Positions 15,974 through 19,795 of a stretch of 64,000 nt of DNA are shown here, piece by piece. The number at the start of each line of letters is the position of its first letter. Within the stretch, counting starts at the first letter, position 1. Both the position numbers and the translations under genes were made by a program. Source of the stretch: Sneathiella sp. HT1-7 (GTDB lineage Bacteria > Pseudomonadota > Alphaproteobacteria > Sneathiellales > Sneathiellaceae); the NCBI RefSeq assembly GCF_020731145.1, contig NZ_JAJFZN010000001.1, positions 124,001 through 188,000 of the forward strand, written 5' to 3'. The notes under the pieces are model-generated. The model was given only the letters and a program-made list of their open reading frames with translations, had not been told where the DNA came from and ran no database searches.

Positions 15974-16021
15974 TAGTTGCGAATGATTTGCATTTTTATT
16001 ATTAGTCATAGTTGCGAATGA
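15974..16021 (+). promoter_or_regulatory. Candidate Fur-controlled promoter with two repeated boxes
   Basis: TAGTTGCGAATGA occurs twice, at 15974-15986 and 16009-16021. The first copy extends to TGCGAATGATTTGCA (15978-15992), a 7-1-7 inverted repeat with one mismatched pair, the architecture of Fur-type boxes. TTGCGA (15977-15982), a 17-bp gap and TATTAG (16000-16005) could be the -35 and -10, so one box covers the -35 and the other follows the -10. The downstream genes are iron-associated types, which supports Fur, but the regulator is inferred. Confidence 0.55.
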
Positions 16022-16053
16022 AAATCAAACCTAGAATCTGAAAGAACATCTCC

Positions 16054-17136
16054 ATGTTAATTTACCGTTCGGGGCCAGCGGGATACCTGCTTGCGCTTAC
16101 CGCCGCCTTTCCGATATCACTTGTTGCTGTCTCCGCATCCGCCGAAGAGACAAGCTATCCGCAAATAACCGGAGAGCTTTCCGTCGAGATTGAGAATGAC
16201 TGGACATACCAATCGGATGATCCCACAGCAGAGATTAACGACCTCTATCCCACGGTTGTTCTTGGTACAAATGTCGCCTTTACAGAAGCCTTTTCCCTTA
16301 ACTTCGAAGCCACGCTCGAGCCCGTCGAAGACGCAACAAGTGATCGGGCGTTTGAAGACTTGGGAGGATATCTGAATATTATCACCGCTAACTATGACGG
16401 TGAGACAGTTTCCGCTTATGCCGGTAAGTTCACCCCGAACTTCGGCATTGCCTGGGATATCGCGCCGGGAATTTTCGGCACCAACCTGAATGAAGACTAT
16501 GAGTTGGCAGAGATGGTCGGATTTGGTGGCGGATTTCATTTTGAAGCCGCGGGTGTCCATACAATATCAGCTAGCACCTTTTTCCAGGATACAAGTTTCT
16601 TAAGCAATTCTGTTGGAACAAAACGAGGGCCGTTGGAACTTTCAGACGGCGGTGCTGGCAATACGGAAGACTTCTCTTCATTTGCTGTCGCATTTGATGG
16701 TGAATTTCAACATGTTGCCGGATTTCGGTATCATCTTGGCTTTTCCTCTCTCGGGGCTGGCGAGGGTGGCAATGACCGACAGCTTGGCTATGCCATTGGC
16801 GTCGAATACGCCTTTAACATCGGCGAGAACCTGACCATTTCTCCCATGGCTGAATATGTCTATTTCGATAATTATGGCGGCATGGGCAATGACACTGCGA
16901 AATATTTCACTGGTGGACTGGCGCTCAATCATGAGAACTGGGTTGCCTCGACCACCTATCAGTTGCGCGATACGGAAGTTTCCGGCGTCACTACCGATGA
17001 CTATGTCGTCGACTTTACCGTGGGTTATGTCTTTGACATGGGCCTCGGGGTAGCTGCCGCATGGCGTGGCGCCGAAGAAGACAACGTCGATTCAGAGGGC
17101 CTTGGCCTTCTCCTTTCATACGCAATTGAATTCTAA
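16054..17136 (+). CDS. Outer-membrane beta-barrel (porin-like) protein
   Basis: A 360-residue protein with a signal peptide ending about ASAEE. It is rich in alternating hydrophobic/polar strands and acidic turns (for example LNIITANYDGETVSAYAGKF, YAIGVEYAFNIGENLTISPM) and ends with FSYAIEF-type C-terminal aromatic residues (LLLSYAIEF), as expected for BAM-dependent barrels. It is the first gene of a three-gene operon with an imelysin and a di-haem protein, two bases or so before the imelysin frame. A channel or receptor for iron or haem is possible but not shown. The ribosome-binding site is weak. Confidence 0.75.
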   Translation: MLIYRSGPAGYLLALTAAFPISLVAVSASAEETSYPQITGELSVEIENDWTYQSDDPTAEINDLYPTVVLGTNVAFTEAFSLNFEATLEPVEDATSDRAFEDLGGYLNIITANYDGETVSAYAGKFTPNFGIAWDIAPGIFGTNLNEDYELAEMVGFGGGFHFEAAGVHTISASTFFQDTSFLSNSVGTKRGPLELSDGGAGNTEDFSSFAVAFDGEFQHVAGFRYHLGFSSLGAGEGGNDRQLGYAIGVEYAFNIGENLTISPMAEYVYFDNYGGMGNDTAKYFTGGLALNHENWVASTTYQLRDTEVSGVTTDDYVVDFTVGYVFDMGLGVAAAWRGAEEDNVDSEGLGLLLSYAIEF

Positions 17137-17150
17137 GCATGAGGAACCCA

Positions 17151-18380
17151 ATGAGAAAAATTAGCTTATATGCAGGCATCTCCTGCATCGCACTGGCACT
17201 CGCTTCCGTGTCCTATGCTTCACAAACCGATCCTATCCGGAATATCTCAAGCTATGCCCTTGATAAGGATGCCGCCGGATATGTTCCGAAGTATGACGCT
17301 TATCCGGTCATCGCAAATTATGCCGCATTGGTCGCGGAAAATTACAGTCAGTCACTGCTGGATGCAAAAGACCTGCAAACTGCCATCGGCGCGCTGCTGG
17401 AAAATCCATCCCAGGAAACGCTTAACGCAGCTCGAAACGCTTGGCTGAATGCCCGCACGAGCTATTTACAGACGGAGGCATTTCGCTTTTATGAAGGACC
17501 TATCGATTTCGTAGACGAAAAAACCGGCGAAGAAGGACCGGAAGGCCGGCTCAATGCTTGGCCGATGAATGAAGGCTTTATTGACTATGTTGAAGGAAAC
17601 CCGAAAGCTGGAATCATCAATAATACGTCTATCGAGATCACCGCAGCCTCCATTCGTGAAAATGACCAAGTGGAAGACGAGGCAGATGTCACGACCGGCT
17701 ATCATGCCATTGAATTCCTGCTCTGGGGACAGGACATGAACCCCACCTCCCCTGGCGAACGTCCTTATACAGACTTCATCGTCGGGAAGGATAACAACGA
17801 CAGACGGCGGCTCTATCTTAAAACGATCACTGAGATGCTGGTTGCCGATTTGGAATGGCTGGTGACAGCCTGGAATACCAGCGATCCAGACAGCTACGCC
17901 GCAACATTCAAAGCATATTCGGATCGCGAAGCACTTGGCCGAATTCTAACCTCGCTCGCAACACTGAGCGAGTTTGAACTGGCCCTGGAACGCATTGCAA
18001 CCGGGTTAGACAGTGGCGATCAGGAGGACGAGCAGTCTTGTTTCTCCGACAATACACTTAATGACGTCATTTTTGATCAGCGCGGGATACGGAATGTCTA
18101 TTTCGGCAGCTACGGCAGCGTGAATGGCCCCGGCTTCAGCGACCTTGTCGGCGACCTCGCACCAGATCTAAACAAGCGTATGATCACCGCGCTTAACCAG
18201 ACCGACGCAGCGATTTCATCACTCAATTATCCGTTCGACTCTATTCTGGCATCGGCGCCAAAAAGTCAGGCCCGCGCAGAGGCAGAGGCCGTGATTACTG
18301 CCTTGCAAGCTCAATCAGATGTCATTAAGGACATTGGCAAACTCCTCGGAGTTAAAGTCATCGTCCCTACCGGCGGTTAA
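17151..18380 (+). CDS. Imelysin (IrpA/ICMP-like) family protein
   Basis: About 409 residues with a signal peptide (MRKISLYAGISCIALALASV, cleavage near YAS). The imelysin motif GxHxxE is present as GYHAIEFLLWGQD near residue 183, followed by GERPYTDF. Such periplasmic or surface proteins are iron-regulated in several bacteria and proposed to bind iron or act as metallopeptidases; the activity is unsettled. ATG 17151 is preferred because GAGGA lies five bases before it, though the frame starts at 17139. It is operonic with the upstream barrel and the downstream di-haem protein. Confidence 0.92.
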   Translation: MRKISLYAGISCIALALASVSYASQTDPIRNISSYALDKDAAGYVPKYDAYPVIANYAALVAENYSQSLLDAKDLQTAIGALLENPSQETLNAARNAWLNARTSYLQTEAFRFYEGPIDFVDEKTGEEGPEGRLNAWPMNEGFIDYVEGNPKAGIINNTSIEITAASIRENDQVEDEADVTTGYHAIEFLLWGQDMNPTSPGERPYTDFIVGKDNNDRRRLYLKTITEMLVADLEWLVTAWNTSDPDSYAATFKAYSDREALGRILTSLATLSEFELALERIATGLDSGDQEDEQSCFSDNTLNDVIFDQRGIRNVYFGSYGSVNGPGFSDLVGDLAPDLNKRMITALNQTDAAISSLNYPFDSILASAPKSQARAEAEAVITALQAQSDVIKDIGKLLGVKVIVPTGG

Positions 18381-18397
18381 AAGGAACCACAATAAAA

Positions 18398-19795
18398 ATG
18401 CAACGGACGCTTTGGGTCACAGTAGCCCTGATACTGCCACTTATCCTGTCGGCAACTATCGTTAAGGCCGGCTACGACATCAAAGCGCCCATATCTGCTT
18501 CTCCGGGTGGGGAGACAACGCAACCGACCCGGGGGAAAAATTCTTTTTCACTGCCTGCCGCGAATATAAACCGCGATCAACTTCGTATTTTTTTCTTTGG
18601 CAACAAGCTCTTCAATACAAACTGGGTAATCGCGCCCGCGTCGGTCAAAACACTCGATGGCCTCGGTCCGACCTTTAACCGCGTCTCCTGCTCGGGTTGT
18701 CACTTACGAGACGGGCGCGGCCAGCCACCCACGAAAAAGGGCGGGGAATTTCTTTCCATGCTTGTCCGGCTAAGTGTCCCTGGCGCGGCTGAGCATGGCG
18801 GCCCAAACCCTCATCCTATCTATGGCGATCAGTTAAATGACCGGTCAATTCCCTCTGTTCCGGCGGAGGGCAAGGTCATGATCGAAACTACCGAAATTTC
18901 CGGCCAGTTTGCAGATGGCACGCCCTATTCCCTTCTCCGGCCGGAATATCATTTCTCCGACCTTGCATTCGGTCCATTGGGACCGGATATTATGATTTCA
19001 CCCCGGGTGGCTCCGGCCGTCATAGGCCTTGGGTTGCTCGAAGCGATTTCTGAAGAGGATTTAAAGGCAATTGCGGACCCGAAAGATGTCGATGATGACG
19101 GCATTTCCGGCCGGCTCAACCATGTGTGGGATCAAGGCAAAAAAGCAATGCGCATTGGCCGGTTCGGCTGGAAGTCAAACGCGGCGTCACTTCTTCATCA
19201 GAACGCTGCCGCCGCTTTTGGCGATATCGGCCTTACTTCAAATTTGTTTCCTGAGCAGAATTGCCCGGAAGGGCAAGACGCCTGCCGCAATGCACCGATT
19301 GGGAATGCGCCCGAGCTTAGTGATGAGTTTCTGGACAAGATGACACTCTATACCCAGACGCTTGCAGTCCCGATCCGGCGGCATGTTGATGAGCCGGATG
19401 TCGTTGCAGGGGAGTCATTGTTCCGCGATATCGGCTGTGCCTCTTGCCATATCCCGACATTTGTAACAGGAAAACATCCGGCGCTACCGATACTCTCCAA
19501 CCAGACGATCCACCCTTTCACGGACCTTTTGCTCCATGACATGGGCGATGACCTCGCCGATGGCCGGACGGATTTTGTGGCGACTGGCAAAGAATGGCGC
19601 ACCGCACCGCTCTGGGGTATTGGTTTAGTTGAGGCGGTCAACAAACATTCAAGGTTCCTCCATGATGGCCGCGCCCGCTCAATCGAGGAAGCTATCCTCT
19701 GGCACGGCGGAGAGGCGAAAAATGCAAAGGACTCATACCGCAGCCTGGATGCCTTGGAACGCGGGCAACTTCTGGCTTTCCTGAATTCTCTTTAA
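18398..19795 (+). CDS. Di-haem DUF1111 (thiol oxidoreductase-like, peroxidase-related) protein
   Basis: A 465-residue exported protein with an N-terminal signal (LILPLILSATIVKAGYD). Two c-type haem motifs are visible: CSGCHLRDGRG near residue 98 and CASCHIP near residue 347. Conserved C-terminal blocks are APLWGIGLVEAV and FLHDGRARSIEEAILWHGGEA, which are also typical of MauG/cytochrome c peroxidase-like proteins. DUF1111 genes commonly neighbour imelysins in iron-uptake loci. Here it follows the imelysin by 17 bases in one transcript. It may oxidise or reduce iron or a ligand in the periplasm; this is inference. It ends two bases from the convergent MFS gene. Confidence 0.92.
   Translation: MQRTLWVTVALILPLILSATIVKAGYDIKAPISASPGGETTQPTRGKNSFSLPAANINRDQLRIFFFGNKLFNTNWVIAPASVKTLDGLGPTFNRVSCSGCHLRDGRGQPPTKKGGEFLSMLVRLSVPGAAEHGGPNPHPIYGDQLNDRSIPSVPAEGKVMIETTEISGQFADGTPYSLLRPEYHFSDLAFGPLGPDIMISPRVAPAVIGLGLLEAISEEDLKAIADPKDVDDDGISGRLNHVWDQGKKAMRIGRFGWKSNAASLLHQNAAAAFGDIGLTSNLFPEQNCPEGQDACRNAPIGNAPELSDEFLDKMTLYTQTLAVPIRRHVDEPDVVAGESLFRDIGCASCHIPTFVTGKHPALPILSNQTIHPFTDLLLHDMGDDLADGRTDFVATGKEWRTAPLWGIGLVEAVNKHSRFLHDGRARSIEEAILWHGGEAKNAKDSYRSLDALERGQLLAFLNSL

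Follow-up and report, generated by a model that had tools for sequence, protein, structure and literature searches.

In a 64,000-nucleotide stretch of the Sneathiella sp. HT1-7 genome (hereafter the window), positions 16054-19795 hold a tight operon with gaps of only 2 and 17 bp, encoding an outer-membrane barrel, an imelysin and a di-haem protein of the DHOR/DUF1111 family, in that order. We favour, with a probability of roughly 60%, the reading that this operon is an iron-starvation unit whose acidic porin admits iron to the periplasm, where the imelysin and DHOR are located, and that zinc paralogues of the porin act alike under Zur. One of several points against this reading is that a porin alone does not concentrate iron.

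The three encoded proteins

The original prediction of three iron-associated reading frames was borne out; they are real and closely spaced, and two of them are assigned by Pfam. The imelysin (17139..18380, + strand) has a signal-peptide-like start, belongs to Peptidase_M75 (PF09375, E 9.2e-72, 242.4 bits against a cut-off of 23.5) and carries the GxHxxE motif as GYHAIE at residue 187. Its closest solved relative by sequence is 7xrx, named insulin-cleaving metalloproteinase. The DHOR (18398..19795, + strand) matches PF06537 (E 2.5e-99, 333.5 bits, cut-off 22) and has two CxxCH motifs, CSGCH at 98 and CASCH at 347; a search of solved structures with it gave no match at E up to 0.01. The gene 3' of the operon encodes a convergent MFS protein. 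The imelysin is the only one in the whole genome. In the imelysin tree, which is of a quick kind, it is a deeply divergent type that branches separately from the one usual in alphaproteobacteria; this different type, together with the lack of a second imelysin in the genome, is what is unusual here.

The leading gene (16054..17136, + strand), known from the ORF list, family scans and an AlphaFold model, encodes a protein with a signal-peptide-like start that matches no Pfam family, Porin_1 and Porin_4 included, and no NCBIfam model. The model (pLDDT 92) is OmpF-like with 16 strands, a count that takes the short 254-256 element together with 243-252. Strands 5 and 6 are joined by a long stretch of ordered structure, residues 127-153, which may correspond to the loop 3 that folds into the pore in OmpF-type porins. 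Its fold neighbours are OmpF/OmpC/PhoE-like with Z about 25 (for 5o78_A, Z 25.2, rmsd 2.6, 287 aligned), so that a porin fold is well supported by the model. A sequence search of solved structures with the porin profile returned one chain, named PhoE (E 0.016). TonB-dependent receptors have a plug domain and a 22-strand barrel. A receptor of this kind was rejected: the protein has 360 aa, 16 strands, no separate plug domain and no TonB-receptor family match. The mature part is very acidic (53 D/E versus 9 K/R), and acidity is common across the family, members without metal neighbours included. Conserved charged residues are E89, R98, K125, E153, D179 and E267.

Relatives of the porin were found in 43/385 alphaproteobacterial genomes, and a phylum-wide search found them in 4/398 genomes, its own included; the other three were entered in the porin tree, in which the long-branch rows are unsure. 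Among 49 family members compared with Pfam at E up to 0.01, 13 matched Porin_4 and one matched Porin_1; in an NCBIfam scan of 49 members the sole matches were to the AcfA family, in 8 of them.

The candidate operator region

A sequence search of the window found TAGTTGCGAATGA twice, at 15974-15986 and 16009-16021. As originally proposed, one copy, the first, extends to a 7-1-7 inverted repeat, TGCGAAT-G-ATTTGCA (TGCGAATGATTTGCA, 15978..15992, no strand assigned), which is symmetric at 6/7 positions and has this single exact match in the whole window. A second, degenerate 7-1-7 site (TGCGAATGAAAATCA, 16013..16027, no strand assigned) lies 35 bp 3' of the first and has, by hand count, 2 mismatches to TGNNAATNATTNNCA. 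A genome-wide count gives 4 occurrences of TGNNAATNATTNNCA versus one of the reversed control. The looser TGCRAATNATTYGCA with <=2 mismatches gives 55 versus 10, a count that overstates because 13/25 inspected sites fall within ORFs. Of the other three TGNNAATNATTNNCA sites, one lies 349 bp upstream of the ORF start of a haem receptor (TIGR01785), and the remaining two have no obvious iron gene alongside.

Absence of the repeats upstream of orthologous operons, which would speak against Fur-type control, was looked for. Loci L035-L038, from four sister genomes, likewise have the box 61-62 bp ahead of the start codon, and the second copy is largely kept in them. Because box and spacing recur in this way, the box at 15978-15992 is more than chance. 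Judged by sequence, the conserved box is well supported, the operon carries the conserved upstream 7-1-7 operator expected of a Fur regulon member, and the proposed Fur-type control gains support; repression at 15978-15992 would then be exerted by Fur itself. The DHOR reading frame of one sister locus, L035, spans just 415 aa.

The claim that a plausible -35/-10 pair lies between the repeats fared poorly. A consensus promoter scan found no promoter there, although an A+T-rich, core-promoter-like stretch between both sites (15994..16003, + strand) reads TTTYAYTATT in 5/5 aligned sequences; it is no consensus sigma-70 match. Promoter and terminator scans of the region gave nothing useful, and an Rfam scan of the window gave 0 matches.

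Proposed iron and zinc branches of the porin family

Linkage of the porin to an imelysin, scored where a sequence search picked up an imelysin in its vicinity, recurs outside Sneathiella. It changes about 9 times on the porin tree, where a shuffle test shows clustering only, and two very different imelysin types occur among the porin-linked loci. The porin is present in 22/78 genomes with an imelysin versus 21/307 without (a hand count that ignores kinship). It adjoins the imelysin in only 10/78 imelysin-bearing sampled genomes, and it is missing from all of another 60 imelysin stretches; the porin is therefore not obligatory for imelysin. In one genome (G124), porin and imelysin are on different short contigs. 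At L046, a siderophore-interacting protein is encoded by the second ORF 3' of the porin.

The original prediction had the barrel standing in place of a second imelysin or DUF1513 gene, and proposed comparing barrel genes beside imelysins in other alphaproteobacteria. That comparison confirmed the linkage and refuted the substitution: outside the window's clade, by our own count, 10/13 porin-imelysin loci have all five of porin, imelysin, DHOR, imelysin-2 and DUF1513. The count leaves out L051, a contig of 5.9 kb whose imelysin match is uncertain and which was treated as imelysin-linked in the tree and as 'other' in the box count below. On a Phaeobacter plasmid, the gene row is hemP-peptidase-porin-[2Fe-2S]-bacterioferritin-c-type cytochrome-imelysin-DUF1513.

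Fur-type boxes with <=1 mismatch precede the porin in 13/18 imelysin-linked loci, 0/11 zinc-set entries (L073, in two fragments, is counted twice) and 7/28 others, many of which have no recognised iron or zinc neighbour. For these counts the DNA upstream of the porin is too short in L056 and L071; L071, although imelysin-linked, is outside the 18; in L044 and L048-L050 the imelysin comes first and a box ahead of the porin is therefore not expected. We count about six lineages with boxes (the Sneathiella clade, L041, L055/L059, L061, L062/L063 and L067). It should be noted that the p values for boxes come from simple Markov shuffles and that sister genomes are not independent.

Some sister porins instead adjoin ZnuA, ABC-3 or CobW genes. 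The zinc set was drawn up from such neighbours, recognised by Pfam in L065, L070, L073, L084, L085 and L091 and by similarity cluster only in L080 and L081, and from DUF1826 and/or a Zur box (L083, L086, whose Zur boxes are thus partly there by definition). Zur boxes precede porin paralogues in L080 and L083-L086, and a near-exact one is absent in the other five zinc-set loci (L065, L070, L073, L081, L091). In the window's own genome the exact Zur pattern occurs only twice: one copy precedes a porin paralogue, G000:C1:676442-677584, and the other separates znuA from zur. Zur boxes, more histidines and no Fur-type box mark a clade of five porins centred on Sneathiella. The median histidine number is 15.5 in eight zinc-set porins (L073 and L091 absent, L081 with only 4) versus 4, phylogeny being ignored. 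The split between iron and zinc has exceptions: in L060 and L090 a Fur-like site and a Zur-like one occur together, and Roseovarius L050 and L051 have a Zur-like box ahead of the porin, in L050 within an iron locus.

Mechanism, alternatives and significance

On the reading of an iron-starvation unit, scarcity of iron would lift repression at the Fur-type site 15978-15992, assisted by the weaker downstream site, and one mRNA would yield three exported proteins. Iron ions or small iron complexes would diffuse into the periplasm through the acidic channel of the plug-less 16-stranded porin; the imelysin and di-haem DHOR may capture that iron and/or alter its redox state, and hand it on to an inner-membrane importer encoded elsewhere. 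FTR1 (PF03239), FeoB_C and NRAMP have no match in the genome, and a FutA/FbpA-type ferric-binding protein, found by SBP_bac_6 search, was the only match among the importer families searched. Paralogues of the zinc branch, under Zur boxes or by zinc-uptake genes, would do the analogous job for zinc. Of the proposed role of the barrel as the outer-membrane component of an iron or haem acquisition machine, the idea of an outer-membrane partner for imelysin-DHOR is supported, the barrel being a 16-strand porin; haem is not specifically indicated, because this porin channel lacks the plug of a TonB receptor.

Four alternatives are taken in descending order of probability. The barrel could be an ordinary non-selective porin, iron-regulated and raising outer-membrane permeability in starvation with no special role in iron uptake. 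The OmpF/OmpC/PhoE-like fold and the many relatives outside recognised metal loci fit this; however, linkage to imelysin/DHOR recurs in several lineages and a Zur/zinc branch richer in histidines runs in parallel; both argue for metal relevance, which leaves the idea a serious but unlikely contender. We also think it improbable that control is exerted by Irr or some other member of the FUR family instead of Fur, in which case the operon would follow haem/iron status differently. The genome encodes three FUR-family proteins, the two further ones read as Irr-like and Zur-like, and several boxes have an AATNATT core that resembles Irr boxes, but the TGC...GCA half-sites are unlike the Irr consensus, and the haem receptor downstream of another of the four genome sites is a usual Fur target. 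Less probable still, the porin may serve a small siderophore/iron complex, processed by imelysin and DHOR, and not free iron. LbtU is reportedly a TonB-independent barrel for such a complex, and the porin is co-located with iron genes, including the siderophore-interacting protein gene at L046; yet the operon has no siderophore biosynthesis or receptor gene, and the NCBIfam matches of the family are to AcfA alone. Finally, that imelysin-DHOR is mainly a peroxide-defence pair with the porin as an iron-sparing accessory, as the peroxide-induced, RirA-dependent DUF1111 protein of Dinoroseobacter shibae might suggest (PMC8007024), is very unlikely given the Fur-type box here and the nearby iron genes, hemP and bacterioferritin, of related loci.

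To our knowledge, no outer-membrane partner of imelysin/DUF1111 systems has been described. The Fur-regulated imelysin operon PA4370-PA4373 of Pseudomonas aeruginosa (PMC3143127) similarly has an ICMP-type imelysin beside a DUF1111 protein under Fur-type control; here, in contrast, a porin leads, a second imelysin and DUF1513 are missing, and the imelysin is on a separate branch. The alphaproteobacterial porin-imelysin-DHOR-imelysin2-DUF1513 loci (for example on the Phaeobacter sp. G2 plasmid, L188) line up a porin, an imelysin and a DHOR homologous to those here, but with five core genes, to which L188 adds hemP, [2Fe-2S] and bacterioferritin, whereas the present operon has three and another imelysin type; in the Rhodobacterales five-gene loci, unlike here, the imelysin is ahead of the porin. 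The iron-uptake system EfeUOB likewise pairs a haem enzyme with a domain of the imelysin type, but a system of that kind was rejected for want of an FTR1 permease.

Among metal-responsive porins, MnoP is an outer-membrane manganese channel made when the metal is scarce, OmpW is a small 8-strand barrel and OprD belongs to another porin family; we know of no pairing of OmpW or OprD with an imelysin. Likeness to MnoP of Bradyrhizobium japonicum, named in PMC6011978, is one of concept: an outer-membrane divalent-metal channel, here with iron/zinc linkage. RopAe of Rhizobium etli, a copper porin induced by copper scarcity (PMC6011978), is also an alphaproteobacterial porin tied to one metal's scarcity, but is a Porin_2 protein (PF02530), a family that 0/49 of our members match at E up to 0.01. 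OmpW of Acinetobacter, iron-regulated according to PMC10483418, and OprD, placed in Zur regulons in PMC6103462, are likewise porins linked to metal regulation. The passages retrieved from the open-licence PMC literature mention neither such a porin under iron or zinc control nor an imelysin paired with a porin.

Little is known of the route by which non-siderophore iron crosses the outer membrane in marine bacteria; for SAR11, PMC4771312 suggests that transport is 'probably' passive. We tentatively suggest that this unnamed alphaproteobacterial porin family may comprise metal-dedicated channels. Its iron branch, acidic and under Fur control, would have been linked repeatedly to imelysin-DHOR modules of two very different types, and its zinc branch, under Zur control and richer in histidines, to ZnuABC/CobW/DUF1826. 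Inorganic iron could thereby enter marine alphaproteobacteria independently of TonB, and imelysin systems would have their missing outer-membrane partner. With its Fur/iron and Zur/zinc branches running in parallel within a single genome, such a porin family would make metal-specific diffusion through dedicated porins directly testable.

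The operon and its porin

The window corresponds to G000:C1:124001-188000 of a 3.83 Mb genome. The operon occupies window positions 16054-19795 and is flanked by a divergent ABC transporter on one side and a convergent MFS gene on the other. A porin gene (16054-17136, +) is followed after 2 bp by an imelysin gene (17139-18380, +; strong Pfam match, GYHAIE motif) and, after a further 17 bp, by a gene for a DUF1111 di-haem protein (DHOR; 18398-19795, +; strong Pfam match, two CxxCH motifs). In a sequence search against solved structures, the imelysin was closest to 7xrx (E 1.5e-61). 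The porin itself has no Pfam or NCBIfam match at E up to 0.1. Its AlphaFold model (mean pLDDT 92) comprises 16 strands; residues 127-153 (between strands 5 and 6) and 179-208 (between strands 7 and 8) make up long ordered segments. In structural comparison the model most resembles OmpF/OmpC/PhoE-type porins (Z about 25, 287 residues). The mature protein carries 53 acidic and 9 basic residues; acidity is shared by most family members and so is no mark of the iron branch. The closest named relatives of the porin are from Sneathiella, with 92-77% identity for loci L035-L039. In the Sneathiella bin L035 (8345-9589), the DHOR open frame spans only 415 aa, against 465 in the window.

A Fur-type box upstream of the porin

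The inverted repeat TGCGAATGATTTGCA (15978-15992) matches the pattern TGNNAATNATTNNCA exactly. This pattern occurs four times in the whole genome and its reversed control once. One further site is found 349 bp upstream of the start of an ORF for a TonB-dependent haem receptor (match to TIGR01785 exceeding the cut-off), and a TonB-like ORF follows the receptor; no obvious iron gene adjoins the remaining two sites. A looser version of the pattern is less telling, with 13 of 25 inspected sites falling within ORFs. In the sister genomes (L035-L038), the box is found 61-62 bp from the porin start codon with 0-1 mismatches, and a second, degenerate site downstream of it is largely kept; L039 has an exact box at 96 bp. 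Allowing one mismatch, the box precedes the porin in 13/18 imelysin-linked loci, 0/11 entries of the zinc set, chosen by zinc-type neighbours and/or a Zur box, and 7/28 other relatives. The five misses among the imelysin-linked loci are L044 and L048-L050, where imelysin comes first, and L058, with two mismatches. Imelysin loci lacking the porin have the box in 22/60 cases, counted with a looser window.

Elsewhere in the genome, G000:C1:344638-344705 (L093:4639-4706) holds two Fur-type sites, of which one fits TGCAAATCATTTGCA exactly; within 400 bp of them, no ORF of >=60 aa begins and reads away. The pair perhaps marks an iron-regulated small RNA or very small protein.

A probable zinc branch of the same family

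The genome encodes a second porin of the family (G000:C1:676553-677584, 34% identity). The exact Zur-type pattern TGTTATNNNATAACA has just two occurrences in the genome, one 25 bp upstream of the paralogue (L086, 676402-677584) and the other between a ZnuA gene and a zur-znuC pair; one mismatch gives 10 sites versus 4 for the control. The Zur-type box agrees with the GTTA-N5-TAAC motif, which Zur sites share across many proteobacteria (PMC4176598). A one-mismatch Zur-like word, TGTTAGCACATAACA, also flanks the paralogue on both sides (G000:C1:676101-676115 and 677793-677807).

The relatives L080 and L083-L086 carry an exact or one-mismatch Zur box 20-64 bp upstream of the porin and form one clade on the porin tree (support 100/100). 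ZnuA is among the porin neighbours in L085, L073, L070 and L091, while other relatives without imelysin adjoin an ABC-3 permease (L084), CobW (L065), DUF1826 (L083) or DUF1007 (L080). No near-exact Zur box was found before the porins of L065, L070, L073, L081 and L091; L060, L050 and L051 have one without recognised zinc neighbours. In the Roseovarius loci L050 and L051, the Zur-like box TGTGATGTTATAACA directly precedes the porin at a distance of 57-58 bp; the L050 porin belongs to an imelysin-porin-DHOR locus. Dual iron/zinc control of these porins is possible. Beyond the N-terminus, the median number of histidines is 15.5 for porins of the zinc set (8 rows) and 4 for those of the iron set (18 rows; Mann-Whitney p 0.0004, without correction for phylogeny). 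A CbtA cobalt-transporter gene beside one other relative (L066:4641-5399) and a siderophore-interacting protein near another (L046:7403-8332) hint at further metals.

Metal-linked porins are already known individually: RopAe is linked to copper and MnoP to manganese (PMC6011978), OmpW to iron (PMC10483418), and OprD is listed among Zur-regulated genes (PMC6103462). In the open-licence PMC literature, we found no described porin family combining Fur/iron and Zur/zinc branches with repeated imelysin-DHOR pairing.

Repeated linkage of porin and imelysin-DHOR

Porin relatives were detected in 43/385 alphaproteobacterial genomes by single-sequence search, and in 4/398 phylum-wide genomes, the window's own counted, by profile search. 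Of the 385 alphaproteobacterial genomes, 78 have an imelysin; by hand count and ignoring kinship, the porin is present in 22/78 imelysin genomes versus 21/307 lacking imelysin. The two genes are adjacent in 10 genomes (G000, G342, G311, G225, G121, G009, G197, G290, G133, G064) and in 10/17 named porin loci (L035-L039, L041, L044, L048-L050).

All five genes, namely porin, imelysin, DHOR, a second imelysin and DUF1513, are found in 10/13 porin-imelysin loci outside the window clade (L041, L044, L048-L050, L055, L058, L061-L063). Three-gene forms comprise the window clade (window, L035-L039), L067, L059 and L071. Among 60 further imelysin stretches, each from a different one of the 68 remaining imelysin genomes (60 of them covered), a profile search found no porin, and 41 show the order imelysin-DHOR-imelysin2-DUF1513 (hand count, some with intervening ORFs). 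Annotated plasmid loci read hemP-peptidase-porin-[2Fe-2S]-bacterioferritin-c-type cytochrome-imelysin-DUF1513 in Phaeobacter and imelysin-hypothetical protein-di-haem-imelysin-DUF1513 in Sulfitobacter. L048:3859-4658 and similar Rhodobacterales loci encode hemP and an unassigned ~180-aa protein ending in TTLH upstream of imelysin; this ending, or one like it, recurs ahead of imelysin in the porin-less L128, L133 and L179.

The porin tree requires nine changes of imelysin linkage, and well-supported branches force at least eight. In the imelysin tree, a deep branch unites the window clade with L067 and loci that lack the porin; the four-gene type of three same-genus genomes (L142, L143, L168) and S. 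glossodoripedis (L041) is placed apart from it. In L040 and L052, the ABC/MFS synteny around the porin matches that of the window but imelysin is missing from the locus, and in L052 a metallophosphatase gene intervenes. These data are read most simply as a porin locus that was resident first and to which imelysin-DHOR modules of different types became attached. That such attachment recurred is the strongest evidence that the porin and the imelysin-DHOR pair are functionally linked.

Under iron shortage, Fur-type derepression would supply a channel together with two periplasmic iron-handling proteins; iron would pass through the porin and then be handed over between the proteins. A family search of the genome found none of the inner-membrane importers FTR1, FeoB_C and NRAMP. 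A protein of the FutA/FbpA type is encoded, with similarity to ferric-binding proteins of solved structure (E 3e-106 to 2pt1); it is the likely point of iron entry at the inner membrane.
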